This document shows, in pieces, positions 1,782-41,600 of a DNA stretch of 64,000 nt. Under the pieces are notes generated by a model. It was not told the origin of the DNA and searched no databases. It saw only the letters and a list, made by a program, of their open reading frames with translations. How positions within the stretch are numbered: the stretch's first letter is position 1; every line of letters begins with the position of its first letter. Position numbers and translations under genes: made by a program. The stretch is from Botryobacter ruber (GTDB lineage Bacteria > Bacteroidota > Bacteroidia > Cytophagales > Hymenobacteraceae), in contig NZ_QCZK02000024.1 in assembly GCF_003347595.2 (NCBI RefSeq), positions 434,001 through 498,000 on the forward strand, in the 5' to 3' direction.

Positions 1782-3611
1782 TCATACCATTCCTGCCCGC
1801 ATCGCCTCCCGCTTCTGCTGCGCGGCCATAATGTCTTCGGGCTCGCCTTTCGGGATGGCGCTGATGAGGGTGCGGGTATACTCCTGCTGCGGGTTGCGGT
1901 ACATCTGTTCGGGCGTACCGCTCTCCACGATCTGCCCTTTGCTCATGACCAGTATCCGGTCCGACATGTATTTGGCAACGGAGAGGTCGTGGGTAATGAA
2001 GATGTAGGTCATCCGGAACTCCTGCTTTAGCTTGTTGAGCAAATTAAGCACCTGCGCCTGCACCGACACATCCAGGGCCGATACCGATTCGTCGCAGATG
2101 ATGCACTTCGGCTGCAGTGCCAGTGCCCTTGCAATACAGATTCGCTGCCGCTGACCGCCCGAAAACTCGTGTGGATAACGCTGAAAGTGTTCCGGTAGAA
2201 GTCCCACCTTCTCAAGCAGTTCCATCGCTTTTCCACGGCGTTCTTTTTCGTTGGCATAGAGCTTATGCACACGCATCGGCTCTATAATGGCATCGCCAAC
2301 GGTATGCATCGGGTTGAGCGAGGCGTACGGGTCCTGGAAAATCATCTGGAAGTGGCGGCGGCCTTTTCGCATTTCTTCTGAACTCAGTTGGGCAATGTCG
2401 CGCCCGTCGAAGATGATGTTGCCGGAAGTCGGCTCCACAAGGCGCAGGAGTGTGCGGCCAAGCGTGGTTTTGCCACAACCCGACTCGCCAACAAGGCCGA
2501 TGGTTTCGCCCGGGTACACATCGAAGCTCACACCGTCTACCGCCTTCACGTAATCGGTGGTGCGGGAAAAGAAGCCTTTTTTGATGGGGAAGTACACCTT
2601 CAGGTTTTTTACCTGTAGCAGAGGTGGCTTCTGCCGGTTTTCCTGCTGCTGCTTAATACTCGTAACAGTGCCTACATATTCGTTTACTACATCCACCAGC
2701 GACGGCTCATATACCTGCGGTTTCTTTTCCACAATCCTTCCGTCCGGCGTTTCCTCCATAAAATCCGATACTGTAGGCAGAATAGACTGCGGCTTGGCCG
2801 TTAGTTTAGGGCGGCAGGCCAGCAGGCCTTTCGTGTAGGGGTGCTGCGGATTGGTGAAGATATCGAGCACCCTCCCCTGCTCTACCAGCTTGCCTTTGTA
2901 CATCACCAGGATGCGGTCGGCTATCTCGGCTACTACGCCCAGGTCGTGGGTGATGAACAGCACGGCGGTGTTTTCTTTTACCCGCAGCTCGTCAATCAAT
3001 TCCAACATGCGCGCCTGCACCGTAACATCTAAGGCAGTGGTGGGTTCGTCAGCAATTAACAAAGAAGGCTCGCAGGCCATGGCCATGGCTATCATTACAC
3101 GCTGCTTCTGCCCCCCGGATATTTCGTGTGGATAAGCATCGTAAATCTTCTCCGGTCGCGGCAGCCTTGCCTTCTCAAAAAGGACAATGGTGCGTTCCTT
3201 GGCCTCTTTTTCGGATAAATCCGTGTGCAGCAGTAACACCTCCGCCACCTGTTTTCCACAGGTATACACCGGATTCAGCGACGACATCGGCTCCTGGAAA
3301 ATCATGGAAATTTCATTGCCACGCACCTGCTGCATCTGCTTCTCCGAGAGTTGAAACAAATCCACCTGCCCCAGCCGCTCCGACTGGAAGATAGCCGTTC
3401 CGCCTGCTATCTTTCCCGGCGGGGTATTGATCAGCCGCATCACCGACAGCGACGTTACCGACTTGCCAGAACCCGACTCTCCTACGATCGCCACCGTCTC
3501 GCCCGGGTATATCTCAAACGATACCCTGTCCACGGCCTTGGTGGTGCCGCGGTGTGTGGAAAAAACCGTTTCCAGGTTCCGGACCTGGAGAATGGGAGCA
3601 GGTGTAGCCAA
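1782..3611 (-). CDS. Dipeptide/oligopeptide ABC transporter, fused tandem ATPase (DppD-DppF type)
   Basis: A 609-residue protein with two complete ABC ATPase domains. Domain 1 has Walker A GESGSGKS (44-51), signature SGGQ (165-168) and Walker B LLIADE (184-189). Domain 2 has GESGCGKT (375-382), SGGQ (484-487) and CIICDE (503-508). Each domain ends with the oligopeptide-type extension (NPQHPYT, NPQQEYT). This is the DppD+DppF/OppD+OppF fusion seen in GsiA-like proteins, and it would energise peptide uptake at the inner membrane. No permease or binding-protein gene is adjacent. The start is TTG at 3609-3611: an in-frame stop is 12 bases upstream and the first ATG falls after Walker A. The substrate is not shown by the sequence. 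Confidence 0.93.
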   Translation of the reverse strand: MATPAPILQVRNLETVFSTHRGTTKAVDRVSFEIYPGETVAIVGESGSGKSVTSLSVMRLINTPPGKIAGGTAIFQSERLGQVDLFQLSEKQMQQVRGNEISMIFQEPMSSLNPVYTCGKQVAEVLLLHTDLSEKEAKERTIVLFEKARLPRPEKIYDAYPHEISGGQKQRVMIAMAMACEPSLLIADEPTTALDVTVQARMLELIDELRVKENTAVLFITHDLGVVAEIADRILVMYKGKLVEQGRVLDIFTNPQHPYTKGLLACRPKLTAKPQSILPTVSDFMEETPDGRIVEKKPQVYEPSLVDVVNEYVGTVTSIKQQQENRQKPPLLQVKNLKVYFPIKKGFFSRTTDYVKAVDGVSFDVYPGETIGLVGESGCGKTTLGRTLLRLVEPTSGNIIFDGRDIAQLSSEEMRKGRRHFQMIFQDPYASLNPMHTVGDAIIEPMRVHKLYANEKERRGKAMELLEKVGLLPEHFQRYPHEFSGGQRQRICIARALALQPKCIICDESVSALDVSVQAQVLNLLNKLKQEFRMTYIFITHDLSVAKYMSDRILVMSKGQIVESGTPEQMYRNPQQEYTRTLISAIPKGEPEDIMAAQQKREAMRAGMV

Positions 3612-6330: not shown

Positions 6331-6366
6331 AAAAAGGGGCTGCTCCACATGGAACAGCCCCTTTTT
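6331..6366. terminator. Bidirectional terminator downstream of lspA
   Basis: GGGGCTG (6336-6342) pairs with CAGCCCC (6355-6361), flanked by A and T runs on either side, so it can act on both strands. It lies just past the lspA stop. Confidence 0.85.
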
Positions 6367-26354: not shown

Positions 26355-28217
26355 TTATTTTCCTAGGTATACCATTAGCACTGAAATATCGGCTGGCGAA
26401 ACACCACTTATGCGCGATGCCTGCCCTATTGTTTCCGGGTTTACTTTGAGTAATTTCTCCCGTGCTTCTGCCGATAAGGCAGGTATTTTTCTGTAATCGA
26501 TTCGTTCTTTGATGATGTAGTTTTCCAGCTCGCCCATTTTAGCAGCCATCAGATGCTCTTTGTCAATATAGCTTTCGTACTTCACAGCTATTTCAGCTTG
26601 TTCGATGCTATCGACTTTGAACTTCTTCAGGAACTCTGCTACAGCCGGTACTGCTGCTGCCAAGTATTTAATTTCTACATTAGGCCGTTTCAGCAGTTGC
26701 CCTGCCCGTTGCTTTTCTACAATTGGCGCCGACCCCAGGCTCTCCAGCATGCTGTTGATTTCTCCGGCTTCAATTGGCTTGTTCTGTAAGTATTGAATGA
26801 TTTCGGCTGTTTCGGCAATTTTGTTTTCCACATCTTTTAACCGGCTTTCATCGGCCAGGCCAAGGTCGTAACCAAGTTTGGTCAGGCGGATATCGGCGTT
26901 GTCCTGGCGCAACAGAATTCTGTGTTCGGCACGCGACGTAAACATACGGTAAGGCTCTTCTGTGCCTTTGTTTACCAGGTCGTCTATTAAAACACCAATG
27001 TAAGCCTCCGAACGTTTTAGTACAAACGGCTCTTTGTTGTTGATCTTGTTGTGTGCATTGATGCCGGCCATCAGTCCCTGGCAGGCTGCTTCTTCGTAGC
27101 CTGTTGTTCCGTTTATCTGGCCTGCAAAGTAAAGGTTTTCTACCAGCTTTGTTTCCAGAGTCAGGTTCAGCTGTGTTGGCGGGAAGAAGTCGTACTCGAT
27201 GGCATAGCCCGGGCGGAACATCTTTGCATTCTCAAATCCAACAATTTTACGAAGCGCTTTGAGCTGTACATCTTCCGGCAAGGAACTGGAGAAACCGTTT
27301 ACATACACTTCCACGGTATTCCATCCTTCCGGCTCCACAAAAATCTGGTGACGGTCGCGGTCAGCAAAGCGGTTAATTTTATCTTCTATCGACGGGCAAT
27401 AGCGTGGGCCAAGGCCTTGTATACGTCCCTGGAACATCGGCGATTTTTCGAAGCCGGTTTTCAGGATTTCGTGTACTTCGGAGTTGGTATAGGTAATAAA
27501 GCAGCTGCGTTGTTTTGCCAGCGGCTCTGTTTCGGTATAAGAGAATTTAGAAGGATTCTCGTCGCCGAACTGTTCTTCCATACGGCTGTAGTCGAGCGAG
27601 CGACCATCTACGCGCGGAGGTGTTCCGGTCTTCATGCGGCCTGCTTCAAAGCCTAGTTCAATCAGCTGCTCTGTCAGGCCTTTGGCTGATTTTTCGGCGG
27701 CTCTTCCTCCTCCCAGCTGCTTCTCCCCTATGTGGATAATGCCATTCAAAAACGTGCCGTTTGTAAGCACAACCGCTTTTGCACGTATGGTTATCCCCAG
27801 GCTGGTGCGTACGCCTGCTACTTTTCCATTCTCTACAACCAGCCCCACGACCATCTCCTGCCAGAAGTCTACGTTCTCTGTTTGTTCCAGCGAGAGGCGC
27901 CATGCTTCGGCAAACCGCATGCGGTCGCTTTGTGCGCGCGGGCTCCACATAGCAGGTCCTTTCGATTTGTTCAGCATGCGGAATTGGATCATGGTCTGGT
28001 CGGTAATGATTCCGCTCATGCCTCCCAGTGCATCCACTTCGCGTACTATCTGTCCTTTGGCCACGCCACCCATTGCAGGGTTGCAGGACATTTGGGCAAT
28101 TGTATTCATGTTCATGGTTGCCAGCAGCACCTTTGAACCCATTTTTGCTGCAGCTGCCGCGGCTTCACAGCCTGCATGCCCGGCACCAACAACTATAATA
28201 TCGTATTCAGCAAACAT
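26355..28217 (-). CDS. mnmG: tRNA uridine-5-carboxymethylaminomethyl modification enzyme
   Basis: A 620-residue FAD enzyme that, with MnmE, installs the cmnm5 group on wobble U34 of tRNAs. The dinucleotide-binding motif is [14 protein letters not shown] near the N-terminus, followed by [59 protein letters not shown] and [16 protein letters not shown]. The C-terminal helical domain has ISGVSPADI. The frame is open to 28253, but the 12 extra residues are encoded by a parS palindrome and do not match the family, so ATG 28217 is preferred. Formerly gidA, a frequent neighbour of bacterial origins. Confidence 0.97.
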
Positions 28218-28234
28218 GTATTTTCGATTTAAAT

Positions 28235-28254
28235 GATGTTTCACGTGAAACATC
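28235..28254. promoter_or_regulatory. parS: parS site (ParB-binding centromere)
   Basis: GATGTTTCACGTGAAACATC is a perfect 20-base palindrome whose inner 16 bases (28237-28252) match the bacterial parS consensus TGTTNCACGTGAAACA exactly. It lies in the 66-base gap between ybeY and mnmG. ParB-parS complexes drive origin segregation, and parS sites usually lie near oriC. Confidence 0.9.
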
Positions 28255-28283
28255 AGAAAGAGAAGGTATAATTCCTTTAGTGA

Positions 28284-28712
28284 TTAAAAATTACGCAAAG
28301 ATAAGGAAGAATCTTCTTGTTTACGCATTTGCTCTGCCTCCTTCTTTGTTTTGTCTTTGAAACCAAGCAGGTGAAGAATGCCATGTATCATGACGCGGTG
28401 CAGTTCGTCTTCGAAAGACAAGCCAAGGGATTGGGCATTGTCGCGCACGCGATCTATGCTTATAAAAATATCACCTTCAATGATGCCCTCTTCGTCGGCA
28501 TTATTGAAGGTGATGATATCTGTGAGTGTGTCGTGATCGAGGTACTCCAGGTTAATGTTGTGCAGGTAATCGTCGGAGCAAAAAATGTAAGTTACTATTC
28601 CTAACTCCTGCTTATGCTGCTCTATTACCCTGGTAATCCATTTTGCAATCTGTTCTGGGTTTGTAAGCGCGAAGTCGATGTCTTCGCTTACAAACTCAAT
28701 TTGATGATCCAT
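28284..28712 (-). CDS. ybeY: rRNA maturation RNase / endoribonuclease YbeY
   Basis: A 142-residue metal-dependent single-strand endoribonuclease needed for 16S rRNA 3' maturation and ribosome quality control. The family block HGILHLLGFKDKTKKEAEQM is present. Its third metal position, normally His (LGYDH), is Asp here (LGFKD), a change I recall as usual in Bacteroidota YbeY. DTLTDIITF precedes it. The start ATG at 28712 lies inside the 3' end of the upstream ATPase gene (17-base overlap); a further upstream start at 28739 is possible but fits the family less well. Confidence 0.93.
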   Translation of the reverse strand: MDHQIEFVSEDIDFALTNPEQIAKWITRVIEQHKQELGIVTYIFCSDDYLHNINLEYLDHDTLTDIITFNNADEEGIIEGDIFISIDRVRDNAQSLGLSFEDELHRVMIHGILHLLGFKDKTKKEAEQMRKQEDSSLSLRNF

Positions 28713-29151: not shown

Positions 29152-32100
29152 TTAAATATCAGTTTTTTGAAAATACTCATTTACCTTTTGCTTATAGTAG
29201 GGCGACAACGACGGTGGCACTGTTTTAAGCAATTCGGTTTGTTTTTCTTTTGCTTTTAAATAACGTTCAAAAGATTCCGGTACTTTTCGCGGAATATCCT
29301 GCGCGGTTCTGGCTTCACGTTTGTTGTCCAGTTCCCGCTCCTTCATGGAGTTTTCGGCTTCGAGTAAACGCGTCAGTATTTCCCGTTGTCTCATAAGCGT
29401 TTGCTCAGTCAGTCGTTTATTAACGAGATCAGTTTCGGTTTGTTCCATCATCTTGCTAATATTTCCCATGTCGCCGTTCTTGCCGTTTTCGCCGGGTTTC
29501 TGACCTTGCTGCTCCATCTCTTTCAAGGCATTTCGGAGGGCTTCCTGCTCTGCAGCCAATTTAGCTAATTCTTCAGAAAGTGCCTTGCCTGACTGGTTGC
29601 CTTTTTTCAATTCTTCTATCTTTTTATTCAGTTGCTGCTGCATTTGCCCTAAATCGCCGGGTTTTGGTTTGTTCCCTTTCTGTTTTCCAGACTTGCTGCC
29701 CGGCATCTGCTGCTGCATCGCTTCCTGCATTTGCTTGAGGGCATCGTTGAGCATCAGGGCCAGATTGTTCATCGAGGTCATGGCCATTTGCTGCTGCGCC
29801 GTGGCACGGCCCACATTCCGGTCTTTGAGTTCTTTCATGCTGTTGTCCATGCTCTGGTTCATTTGCGACACTTCGCGCGTTACAAACGACTGCAGCTGGA
29901 ATACCTTTTTGGCCAATGCAAACAAGCTGTCTTCAATTACCTTGGCGTTGTCGCGGAGGTTGAGCTGCTGTTGCGATAAGGTAACAAAACGCGGATCGCT
30001 CTGGTTAACACCCCGGAACGACTTCATGAGCGCTTCCTGGTCGAATGATAGCTTGATCAGGTTTTCGAGGATGTCGCGGAGGTTGTCGAGGTTCTGCGCC
30101 TGGTTTTCCTGGCTCATGCTGCTCTGCATCTCCTGCATTTTCTGAGCCATCTGCTGCATCTTCTGCCCTGCCTTCTGCTGCGACTCGCTCGCCTTTTTGT
30201 TCTGTTGTTTCTCAAGCTGTTCCTGGCCTTTCTCCATGTCCTGTTCTATCTGCTGCTCCATCTGGTCCTGCTGTTCCTGGTCCATCTGGTTCGGTTGTTC
30301 CAGTTTATCGTTCAGGTCTTTTAGCTCGTCCATCTCCTTTTTCAGGTCTTCGAACTCCTGCTTTATCTCTTCCTGTTGCTGCTGCAGTTGCTCGTTGTTC
30401 TCTTTCTTTTCCTGCTTCGTATCGGTCTCTTCGGTTTTCTGAGCCAGGTCCTTTTGCTCTTTGGCCAGCTCATCCAGCTTCTTGGTTACGTTGTCGAGCT
30501 TCTGCTCAAACTGGAGCTGCTTAAATAATTCTAGCGCTCGCTCCAGCTCCTTCTCCAGGTTACGTTCCTTGTTGTCGAGCTGGCTCAGTAGTTTTTGCAG
30601 TTCGGGGTCGTTAGGGCGCTGCTCCTGCAGGAGTTTCTCCAGTTCTTCGTAAAGCTTCTTCGTTTCCTCATCCAGCAGGTTCTCCATCAGCTTCTGAAGT
30701 TCCTTTGCTTTTTCGGCCAGCTGCTTGTCCTGCTCCGACATCATGTTCTGCTTCTGGTTGAGCTGGTCGAAGAGCTCTTTCATGGAATTAATATCCTGCT
30801 CCAGCTGCTTTTTCTTTGCCACCAGGTCTTCCAGCTTCTTCTTGTCCTGCCAGGTCATGTCGCGCTTGGTCTTCATCTTCTCCTCTGTTCGGGCCAACTC
30901 CTGCTGGAGCTGGGTAGCCTTCTGGAGCGACTTGCTTATCTGGCCCTCCACCGACTGCGCATTATTTGCCAGCTCTTTTTCCAGGTCTTTTTTGGTAGGG
31001 ACCTTAAACTCGAAAGAGCGGGTGCGGGCGTTCTTGCGGCCATGGATGCCGTCGTTGTCCCAGACCTGTACGAAGTACTCCAGCTTGTCGCCGGGTGCCA
31101 GGTTCAGACTGCTCGTGTTCCATTGGTAGTAATAGGTCTGGCTAAGCTGCTGCTTGTTGAGCGGCAGCGGTATGCTTTTGTATTTGGCATCCTGTGCCGA
31201 TTTATCGTTGCTGACACGGTACTTGAGGGTCAGGGCGGTGAGGCCATAGTCGTCAGACACGTCCCCTCCTACTACCAGGAACCGGAACAGAGCTGTATCC
31301 CGGAACTGCTCGATTGTAATCTGCGGATGGCGGTCCGGGATGGTGTTGATCTGGTAGCTGATGTCTTCTTTGTTGGTGCTGTGCGCATTCTGCAGCTTAA
31401 TAGAGTAAGCCTGGCTTTGGTTGAACTGCTTGCTGGCCGTGAAAACATTTCCATTTTCTTCTGCTTCTATAGTTTGAGCAGGCTCCGGAAATGACAGGTT
31501 TATGCTTTCGGTTTCGGTAGCATCGAAGCTCCAGTTCAGGGTGCTACCTTCGGGAATGGTGGCATTGCCGGTGTTTTTTACTACTTCAGGTTTACGTCCT
31601 AGATAAGAAGGATATACCACCTCCATCTGGAAATTTTTCAGGTTGGGGCGCGAAAGCAGTTGCAGGTTATATTCATCCGACATAAACCCGGACCCTTCCA
31701 GCTGGAATTCTACCGGCTTCTGAAGTTGCTTGAAGGTATAGCTGTACTGGTTGCTGTTCTTGTTCTTTACCAGCTTCTGTCTGCGCCCGTTGTAGTGGAT
31801 GAATACCTCGTTGGGGAGAGCACGACCTTCAATATCAACTTTCAGTTCAAAGTCTTCTCCCCTGTATGTCCTGAGTTCATCGTTCAGCACATTGAACTCG
31901 AAAGGCGCAGCCGGCGCATAATGCTTGTCGTAGTTGATGATGCGCTCGGTGCCCTGTACAAAAATGGTCGGATACACTAAAGCAATCAGCAGGGCAACGA
32001 CGGTGGGCAGGGCAATATACTTGAGAAGCGGCTTGTTCTCTTTGTACGTAACGGCATCTGTAAACCGGAAGGGCAGCAACTGGCTTGAGCGCTGTTCGAT

Positions 32101-32490
32101 ACTCGCTGCTATCAGTTCGTTTGTTTTATCGAGGTCGCGCAGCTGGATGGCGTTCAGGAGCTTGTCCTTTATCTGGGGATAATGCCGGCCCACCCGGAGA
32201 GCTGCCTGCTCATCAGAAAGCAAGCGCTTCAGGTTGGCAAGCGCTGTAAGGGGTAGTACAATCCAGCGTACAAACACATACACCACTATCCCGACAAACG
32301 AAAACAGCAGTATCGCCCGTACCACCTCCGGAAAGTAAAACATGTACTCCAACAGGCTGAAAACGATGTAGATAGACAGGAGAAGCCCGACAGCAAAGAT
32401 GCTGCCTCTCAGTAACATATTCAGATAAAACTTCTTCTTGAACTCCTGAAGCTGATTCATCAGCTTGTCTAAAGCGCCATTCTTTTCCAT
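29152..32490 (-). CDS. DUF4175 family membrane-anchored coiled-coil protein
   Basis: A 1112-residue protein. Two or three membrane helices lie in the first 90 residues and one near 155-175 (YIALPTVVALLIALVYPTIF). A large beta-rich extracytoplasmic region follows (about 190-510), then some 550 residues dominated by Gln, Glu, Lys and Leu with strong heptad periodicity (LEKELERALELFKQLQFEQ), interrupted by Met/Gln-rich stretches. It matches DUF4175-type proteins, common and often conserved next to ybeY/mnmG in Bacteroidota. The function is unknown; the form suggests an envelope-spanning scaffold. It lies 30 bases upstream of the anti-sigma-type gene. Confidence 0.85.
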   Translation of the reverse strand: MEKNGALDKLMNQLQEFKKKFYLNMLLRGSIFAVGLLLSIYIVFSLLEYMFYFPEVVRAILLFSFVGIVVYVFVRWIVLPLTALANLKRLLSDEQAALRVGRHYPQIKDKLLNAIQLRDLDKTNELIAASIEQRSSQLLPFRFTDAVTYKENKPLLKYIALPTVVALLIALVYPTIFVQGTERIINYDKHYAPAAPFEFNVLNDELRTYRGEDFELKVDIEGRALPNEVFIHYNGRRQKLVKNKNSNQYSYTFKQLQKPVEFQLEGSGFMSDEYNLQLLSRPNLKNFQMEVVYPSYLGRKPEVVKNTGNATIPEGSTLNWSFDATETESINLSFPEPAQTIEAEENGNVFTASKQFNQSQAYSIKLQNAHSTNKEDISYQINTIPDRHPQITIEQFRDTALFRFLVVGGDVSDDYGLTALTLKYRVSNDKSAQDAKYKSIPLPLNKQQLSQTYYYQWNTSSLNLAPGDKLEYFVQVWDNDGIHGRKNARTRSFEFKVPTKKDLEKELANNAQSVEGQISKSLQKATQLQQELARTEEKMKTKRDMTWQDKKKLEDLVAKKKQLEQDINSMKELFDQLNQKQNMMSEQDKQLAEKAKELQKLMENLLDEETKKLYEELEKLLQEQRPNDPELQKLLSQLDNKERNLEKELERALELFKQLQFEQKLDNVTKKLDELAKEQKDLAQKTEETDTKQEKKENNEQLQQQQEEIKQEFEDLKKEMDELKDLNDKLEQPNQMDQEQQDQMEQQIEQDMEKGQEQLEKQQNKKASESQQKAGQKMQQMAQKMQEMQSSMSQENQAQNLDNLRDILENLIKLSFDQEALMKSFRGVNQSDPRFVTLSQQQLNLRDNAKVIEDSLFALAKKVFQLQSFVTREVSQMNQSMDNSMKELKDRNVGRATAQQQMAMTSMNNLALMLNDALKQMQEAMQQQMPGSKSGKQKGNKPKPGDLGQMQQQLNKKIEELKKGNQSGKALSEELAKLAAEQEALRNALKEMEQQGQKPGENGKNGDMGNISKMMEQTETDLVNKRLTEQTLMRQREILTRLLEAENSMKERELDNKREARTAQDIPRKVPESFERYLKAKEKQTELLKTVPPSLSPYYKQKVNEYFQKTDI

Positions 32491-38665: not shown

Positions 38666-41600
38666 ATGAAAAAACTAGTAATCGGCTTTTTTGTCTTTGT
38701 GCTGCTGCTTATAGCGTTGGCAGCATTGGTGCCCGTATTGTTCAAAGATAAAATTAAAGAAGCCCTCGATAAAGAAATTGCCAAAAACATTAACGCTACG
38801 GTTATCTACGAAACCGATGACGTCAGCCTTTCTATTTTCCGCGACTTTCCGGATATTTCGCTGGGCGTGGATAACCTGACCATTGTGGGGCAGGATTCCT
38901 TTAAACTGGATACACTGGCCCAGGTTCCGGCTTTCCGGCTCGGGCTAAACCTGATGAGCGTCATCAGCGGCGATGAGCTGAAGGTAAACAAAGTAGTGCT
39001 CGACGAGCCTGTTATCCGGCTGGTCGTACTCAAAAGCGGCAAAGCCAACTGGGATATTTTTGTACCCGACACGGCTGCCACTGCACCCGGCGATACGGCA
39101 GCCAGCGATTTTAAAATGGCGATCAAAGGCTGGGAAGTTAATAACGGCACCCTCTACTACGACGACCTCAGCATCCCTTTCGGACTGGCAGGTTATAATG
39201 TGAACCACGAAGGCAGCGGCGATTTCGAGAAAAGCGTGTTCGATATGAAGTCCACCACCACCGCCGACCGCTTTACCATGACCTATGCCGGCACCAATTA
39301 CATCCAGAACGCAAAACTGAACGCCGATGTGACCATGGAGATGGACCTCGATAAGTACAGGTACACCTTTAAAGACAACAACATCCGCATCAACGAATTT
39401 CCTTTCCAGTTTGCGGGTACCATTCTCATGCCCGATGAGAACATCGACATGGACCTGACCTTTAAGGCAACCGAAACCGAGTTCCGGAATGTGCTGTCGG
39501 TGGTGCCGGGCATGTACACCGAGGAGTTTAAAGACATCAAAACAGAAGGAAAGTTAAGCTTCGACGGTTACCTGAAAGGCCGCATGAACGACAGCCTGAT
39601 GCCAGGCTTTGGCACCGACCTCAAAATTATTGACGGCATGTTCAAGTACCCCGACCTGCCGCAGGCGGCCCGCAACATTAACGTAGATATGAGCATTGCC
39701 AACAAAGACGGCAACGTGGACAACACGAATATTGATGTGCGCCGGTTCCACATGGACCTGGGCAAAAACCCCGTAGATGCGAAGGTGCTGATACAGGGGC
39801 TGGAGCCGATGAAGGTAAACGGCAACGTAAAAGCTAACATCGACCTGGATGAAATGACGAAAGTTTTCCCGGTGGAAGGCATGACGCTGCGCGGCCTGCT
39901 GAAAGTGGACGCCGACGCCAAAGGTACCTACTCCGAGAAAAGTATGCCGGTGATAAATGCCGATATGCGCCTGACCAACGGCTATGTGAAATCCAAAGAC
40001 TTCCCGGCGCCTATCCAGAACCTGAACATGGTGGCCAACATCCTCAACACCACCGGCAACACCGACGACACCCGCATCAACATCCAAAACTTTAACATGA
40101 CCCTGGATGGCGAGCCGCTGGAGGGGCGCGTGCTGGTGCAGGGTATTGACCAGCCGGCTTTCGATGCCAACATAAAAGGTATCCTCGACCTGACAAAGCT
40201 TACCAAGATTTTCCCGCTGGAGAATACCACTCTCTCGGGCCGCATCAATGCCAATGTGGCTGCCAAAGGCAAGATGAGCGACATTGAGGCTGAAAAATAC
40301 AGCAACGTAACCGCCAACGGAAACATGGCCATCAGCAACCTGAGCTATGTGAGCACTGACCTGCCGCAGGGTATCCGGATTACCAAAGCCGATGCCGTAT
40401 TTAATAATGAGCGTGTTCAGCTCCAGAACATGTCGGGTTTCCTGGGCAAAAGCGACATACAGGCCGCCGGTACGGTTTCGAACTACCTGGGCTATGCGCT
40501 GGCAGAGAACCAGTCGTTGCGCGGGAATTTCAACATCAGCTCCAACCGCTTTAATGTGAACGAGTGGATGGTGGACGAGAACACCGGTCAGCCGACTTCT
40601 GCTGAGCAGGAGGCGCAGGGCGTGGTGGAGGTACCGGCCAACCTCGATGTAACGCTGAACGTGGATGCCAAAGAAGTGCTCTACGACAACCTGAACCTGA
40701 AAAACCTGAGCGGAAAAGTGCTGGTGAAGGACAAGGTAGCCCGACTGCAGGAGGTAACTTTCAACACGCTTGGTGGCACCTTCGCCACCAGCGGCAGTTA
40801 CAATACACAGAACCTGCAGCAGCCGCTTTTCGATTTTAACCTCGACATCAAAAACCTGCAGTTCAAAGAGGCTTTCAACGCCTTTAGTACCATAAAAGCG
40901 CTGGCGCCCATTGCCGGTTTGCTGGAAGGTACCTTCTCCACGAAGTTTAATTTTGCCGGTGAAATTGGCCAGGACATGATGCCTGTGCTCTCGTCGCTGG
41001 ATGGCAGAGGTGTGATAGATGTGGTGAAAGCAGCAGTACGGAATATGGAGGTGCTCAACAAGATCAGCAACCTGACCAACCTTGCTGAACTGAAGAGCTT
41101 GATAGTAGAGAACAGGCGCATCGATGCTCAGATAGTAGATGGCAGCCTGGTAGTAAGTCCGTTCGACGTGCAGGTGGGTAATATAGACATGACCGTGGGC
41201 GGAAGCAACAAGCCAAACGGTGAAATAGACTACGTTACGGCCCTGAACGTGCCTACCGGAAAAGTTGGTCGCGAACTGAACTCCCGCCTGGCTGGCCTGG
41301 TGGGGGGCGATCAGCTGAAGGCAGCCGAGCGGGTTACGCTTAACCTGAACATCGGCGGTACCCTGACCAGTCCAAAAGTATCGCTGGCAGGCGGCAGTGT
41401 GAAGGCACAGGCGAAAGACATTGTAAAGGAAGCTGTTCAAACCAAGCTCGACGATGCCAAGGCCAAGCTGGAGGAGCGCAAACAGCAGGTGCAGGACAGC
41501 ATCACCAACGAGCTGAACCGCCGCAAACTGGAAGCAGAACAGAAAGCCCGTGCCGAACTGGAGAAGAAGCGCCTGGAGGCTGAGCAGCAGTTAAAGCAAA

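Follow-up and report, generated by a model that had tools for sequence, protein, structure and literature searches.

In Bacillus and Pseudomonas, the origin of replication is accompanied by the cluster gidA-gidB-parA-parB, which lies near dnaA; a literature search of partial coverage for this cluster returned no source. The parS consensus reportedly goes back to Livny 2007. It reads TGTTTCACGTGAAACA as used in the available part of PMC10197239, where origins set by parS clusters together with GC skew are not always found with dnaA. For the binding proteins, the accessible portion of PMC7383237 gives R173 and G201 as conserved in all extant ParB, Gln173 and Arg201 as the deciding residues of Noc, and Lys or Arg at position 184 in about 28% of ParB. 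Among flavobacteria, the origins of Mariniflexile litorale (PMC11278836) and Algorimicrobium (PMC12843772) were put at mnmG with Ori-Finder, as far as the available text of these reports goes; in that of Mariniflexile, dnaA misfits the skew and one figure legend calls mnmG ter, contrary to the paper's own text. Here we describe a palindrome beside mnmG.

A palindrome between ybeY and mnmG

In the window (the whole stretch of 64,000 nucleotides analyzed here), direct reading reveals a perfect palindrome of 22 bases, TGATGTTTCACGTGAAACATCA, at 28234..28255 (no strand assigned). An earlier sequence-only reading had described a perfect palindrome of 20 bases; the palindrome stands, whereas its length has to be extended by one base on each side. 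It is the longest in the window, the next longest having 14 bases. Its 16-base core, TGTTTCACGTGAAACA (28237..28252, likewise without strand), agrees with the parS consensus at 0 mismatches, just as that reading had stated, and its further suggestion, given as probable, of a single exact copy in the window was borne out: at up to 3 mismatches from TGTTNCACGTGAAACA, the window holds just two further sites, at 6341 and 13412, each with 3. The whole-genome search that it had proposed likewise returned this core as the sole exact match to TGTTNCACGTGNAACA in 5.84 Mb on 62 contigs, and hence no scatter over the chromosome; base composition predicts about 0.023 such matches per genome. No Rfam match at gathering scores was found within the window and no terminator-like match at the palindrome.

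The palindrome falls within the 66 bases that separate ybeY (28284..28712, minus strand, 142 residues; PF02130, 99.3 bits) from mnmG (26355..28217, minus strand, 620 residues if counted from MFAEYD, the start that conservation makes likely), a spacing that holds given ATG starts at 28712 and 28217, respectively. The in-frame ATG that had been said to prefix MnmG with MFHVKH is present at 28253, and 28218..28253 (minus strand) supplies an extension of 12 residues read from the palindrome. On the other side of ybeY, 29152-32490 encodes a protein of 1112 residues that matches DUF4175 weakly and is rich in Gln, Glu and Lys over a long middle part.

Relaxing the search to at most 2 mismatches from TGTTNCACGTGNAACA yields 30 sites in the genome and 40 for the reversed control pattern; overall, such sites therefore do not exceed background. 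Counting the perfect one, seven of the 30 fall in C17:410-508 kb on the contig of the window. In simulations with 30 uniformly placed sites, at least seven fell in some such window in 0.0002 of the runs, and six of the 29 others clustered alike in 0.003. Seven such sites on C17 were compared with 200 kb from each of two relatives (G002 and G019): one is letter-identical in G019 with 3 mismatches in G002, one aligns with 8 mismatches and for five the alignment does not cover the site. We also observed GATTTCACGTGAAACA, 2 mismatches from parS and in an open frame, at C17:498299, 299 bases past the end of the window; it is identical at G019:C1:3976879 and has 3 mismatches in G002.

ParB and the replication origin

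The ParB homologue that a parS site leads one to expect was found adjoining parA on contig C45: the one ParB_N protein of the genome has 304 residues, and its neighbor, named ParA from a Walker motif and weak ParA-type matches, has 260. Among solved structures, this ParB is closest in sequence to ParB/Spo0J chains, with Noc next. The top NCBIfam model is that of Noc, at 239 bits and under its cut-off of 315, and the ParB model TIGR00180 scores 184 bits, over its cut-off of 58. In an alignment to Noc, mapped by eye, the protein has Arg at Noc's Gln and Gly at Noc's Arg, and the equivalent of residue 184, mapped in the same manner, is Lys. A chromosomal-type ParB with the parS-reading residues (Arg, Gly) is thus present in the genome. 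An SMC protein is encoded on contig C41. More generally, SMC was found in 23 of the 27 genomes searched; the four without an SMC_prok_B match (G174, G190, G226 and G261) belong to one family, f24, and carry both ParB and parS, while the ParB-less G037 and G055 (family f2) both have SMC and mnmG. Loading of SMC at parS is thus not general, given the four parS-bearing f24 genomes. According to the available part of PMC10197239, neither of the two Bacteroidetes studied had a known condensin.

The earlier placement of parS near the replication origin fits the GC skew in three genomes. In the present one, the cumulative skew computed on C17:300001-520487 is lowest at 40102 of the window (C17:474102; no strand), 11.9 kb from parS; this contig has a weak skew and extends 58 kb beyond parS, so that a lower point may lie further on. 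In G002 and G019 the local minimum lies 2.8 and 2.6 kb from parS (200 kb each), and in all three genomes it falls on the ybeY side. The site thus combines rarity (one exact copy) with a skew minimum 2.6-11.9 kb away, marking a candidate origin region. Sampling at the chromosome-wide scale (20 stretches of 20 kb per chromosome) shows a turn to positive skew at 4.05-4.19 Mb in G002, where parS is at 4.20, and a noisy one at 3.5-4.25 Mb in G019, where parS is at 4.02; in both, the opposite turn lies about half a chromosome off.

The genes usually found at such a place are distant. In the eight genomes measured for dnaA, out of 12 (the present draft, G016, G020 and G074 were left out), dnaA lies at least 695 kb from parS in 8/8, and parB lies at least 495 kb from it in 17/17 measured, out of 20 site-bearing genomes, with most chromosome lengths rounded and treated as circular. 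In G002 the distance to parB is 2.62 Mb on a main contig of 5.26 Mb. In the two genomes sampled for skew, G002 and G019, parS and the skew turn are separated from dnaA by 0.75 and 1.06 Mb, and in the present draft both dnaA and parAB are on contigs other than that of parS. A compact origin locus, with parAB and dnaA within tens of kilobases, is usual, if not defining, and is absent here. Three same-genus contigs, G002:C1, G019:C1 and G020:C1, begin 402 bases ahead of the dnaA match, as though dnaA marked the origin. A cluster of DnaA boxes (TTWTNCACA) at about 2170-3560, the densest within reach, was considered as oriC and dropped because it lies inside an ABC-transporter gene (1782-3611; PF00005), two of its strict boxes reading as YPHE codons.

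The site beside mnmG in the genus and across Bacteroidota

The comparison with related genomes that the sequence-only reading had suggested for the conservation of the site and its place came out positive, in the genus and beyond. The exact site occurs in 36 of the 37 same-genus genomes (the present one included), exactly once in 34 of them; a second copy is present in G013 and G021, and G001 lacks an exact site. In the 25 same-genus loci that were read, the site lies just upstream of mnmG, and the 16-mer is unchanged in 24, G001 differing in its last base, so that the palindrome appears as 16 constant letters in a spacer with varying neighbors. The closest named relative among the matches listed, Pontibacter mangrovi (MnmG 88%), has the exact site and suggests the name Pontibacter for this genus.

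Across the phylum, an exact match is present in 223 of 296 genomes as against 4 of 296 for the reversed control pattern, with 1 to 5 exact copies per genome. The genus and phylum surveys together comprise 270 site-bearing genomes, and mnmG was located in 80 of these from 48 families, picked for spread and hence non-random. In 63 of the 80, covering 37 of the 48 families, mnmG has a perfect site no more than 1 kb away; for a random site in a 4-Mb genome, the probability of lying that close to a given gene is about 0.0005. The site is upstream in 49 of the 80 (25 families), and the remainder of the 63 have it downstream or, in G203, inside the gene, which may be due to chance; in some families it is just downstream of mnmG or on both sides. 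In the 17 genomes without a site within 1 kb, it is 7-27 kb away in five, 118 kb away in one and on another contig in eleven, one of which, G275, has both mnmG and the site at contig ends. Likewise, among named loci, namely the best 80 of 589 MnmG relatives, the site within 1 kb is perfect in 49, has one mismatch in 14 and two in 7, making 70 of 80 with at most 2 mismatches; some of these loci are incomplete near mnmG, and the query bore the MFHVKH extension, which may slightly favor site-bearing loci. The ten without a site comprise seven from Saprospiraceae or Lewinella, one Adhaeribacter, one Hymenobacter and one Cytophagales MAG. Within a literature of partial coverage, no account of a parS-mnmG association across Bacteroidota was found; an earlier one may exist.

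Fifteen of the 17 exceptions were retrieved and their neighbors read. In three families (f35, f49 and f62; genomes G071, G165 and G309), murQ adjoins a perfect parS or lies within about 0.4 kb of it (L232:2034-2095; L233:6642 and 8314; L237:2066-2319). In family f25 (L225, L226, L227 and L228), threonine synthase is next to or near parS in two genomes, and a heme-A-synthase-like gene, below the model cut-off, is near it in the two others. In G128 (L223:2033) and G222 (L224:2024), which share the family of the present genome but belong to another genus, g23, parS is 25.5 and 26.6 kb downstream of mnmG; the gene directly adjoining it encodes, in both, a protein of 128 residues that matches HTH_7 weakly. 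Such sites by murQ, threonine synthase and other genes fit a relocatable centromere and speak against a role in mnmG expression.

The genomes without an exact site number 82 in the two surveys (11 + 73, two shared), and 30 of them were examined. In 25 of the 30, a site with 1-2 mismatches, often by changes of the outer bases, is kept within about 250 bases of an end of mnmG. The five without such a near-site are G037 and G055, with no ParB_N match, G048, with only an odd ParB of 646 residues, and G147 and G094, with an ordinary ParB. Hence, within this set, a near-site at mnmG accompanies an ordinary ParB in 25 of 27 genomes versus 0 of 3 without one, a contrast with a hypergeometric probability of about 0.0025 that ignores relatedness, two of the three (G037 and G055) being of one family, f2. 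As background, among 200 same-genus pieces of 3.85 kb, 2 come within 2 mismatches, one of them holding the perfect site itself. In the same ParB search, ParB_N is present in 20 of 20 site-bearing genomes. The site is thus kept in relatives and lost with ParB, as seen in the genus (36/37) and in the set without an exact site, respectively.

A probable chromosomal centromere and its relation to known systems

Taken together, we hold it highly probable that the palindrome is the chromosomal parS site of a ParABS system, and very probable that it serves as the chromosome's main centromere. By analogy with the known family, we advance the following mechanism of action. A ParB dimer, produced from the parA-parB pair elsewhere in the genome, would bind the palindrome, load as a CTP-dependent clamp and spread over the adjacent DNA, upon which ParA would move the replicated origin regions apart. 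In the present genome, parS-bound ParB might load SMC too.

Three other explanations were weighed against this one. The palindrome might be parS-like only in look and serve as an operator for a transcription factor of mnmG or of ybeY-mnmG. Many operators are palindromic, the site is just before mnmG in the genus, and a weak promoter-like match overlaps it on the plus strand (28245-28272), although such matches number 4 versus 2.9 expected. However, elsewhere the same site follows mnmG, lies on both its sides or accompanies other genes; it numbers 1 to 5 per genome; and it is missing at mnmG from the ParB-less genomes. We therefore consider an operator improbable. Even less credence is due to the bases being protein-coding, with MnmG truly beginning at MFHVKH and the palindrome a by-product of the peptide. 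The frame is indeed open from 28253, here and in 6 of the 25 same-genus loci with the present one included; yet in 14 of 25 the site and mnmG are in different frames and in 5 of 25 the site is in frame but followed by a stop, the distance from parS to the GAGHAGCEA codons being 63, 64, 65 or 68 bases, whereas the nucleotide sequence of the site itself is constant in 24 of 25. With 19 of the 25 loci out of frame or stopped, MFHVKH is no conserved protein start, and the MnmG family match (TIGR00136, 852 bits) covers residues 17-630 of the extended frame. The earlier claim of a false N-terminal extension is thereby upheld and, on the evidence of these frames, the extension is itself a by-product of the parS site. 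Finally, short palindromes do arise by chance, and nothing specific was found in support of a chance palindrome without function, which we regard as the least credible of all: it has to contend with the small number of exact matches expected per genome, the excess over the reversed pattern across the phylum and the constancy of 16 letters amid a varying spacer.

Returning to the centromere, the simplest inference is that mnmG with parS represents an origin remnant of an older origin cluster, the site tending to remain by mnmG, on either side, across the phylum. We favor, with some reserve, a scenario wherein the Bacteroidota have kept centromere and origin by mnmG since early in the phylum, whereas dnaA and parAB have moved, sometimes by half a chromosome. 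If true, parS beside mnmG would mark the origin in practice for this phylum, and would do so better than dnaA, with a few lineages carrying centromeres moved to other neighbors, such as murQ in three families. While parS itself is known, a centromere kept beside one housekeeping gene across much of a phylum would make a useful landmark, and the part of wider interest is this anchoring at mnmG with dnaA and parAB far away. It could help correct: (i) origin placement, since the three contigs named above start just ahead of dnaA, with parS and the skew turn 0.75 and 1.06 Mb off in the two sampled; (ii) growth estimates from read coverage; (iii) gene starts placed too far upstream, such as MFHVKH. 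The anchoring further raises the question of why the parS-mnmG pairing persists while ParB and DnaA are encoded far off.

Among described systems, the skew-based origins of Mariniflexile litorale (PMC11278836) and Algorimicrobium (PMC12843772) resemble the present one in adjoining mnmG, but parS sites go unmentioned in the available parts of those reports. The Noc-binding site is alike in belonging to the same binding-protein family and in being a similar 16-base palindrome (PMC7383237, in its accessible portion). It differs in having other bases at positions 1 and 6, where the present site has those of parS; likewise, at the deciding residues the present ParB carries Arg and Gly in place of the Gln and Arg of Noc, and the site is not of the Noc-binding type. 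With known chromosomal parS sites, the locus shares the identical 16-base core, the low copy number, a nearby skew minimum and a partner with ParB-type residues encoded with parA; it departs from them in having one exact copy, by mnmG, with parAB at least 0.49 Mb off in 17 relatives. As in the origin cluster of Bacillus and Pseudomonas, mnmG (gidA) is near parS and near the probable origin; unlike that cluster, the Bacteroidota measured here keep mnmG and parS together with dnaA and parB far away.
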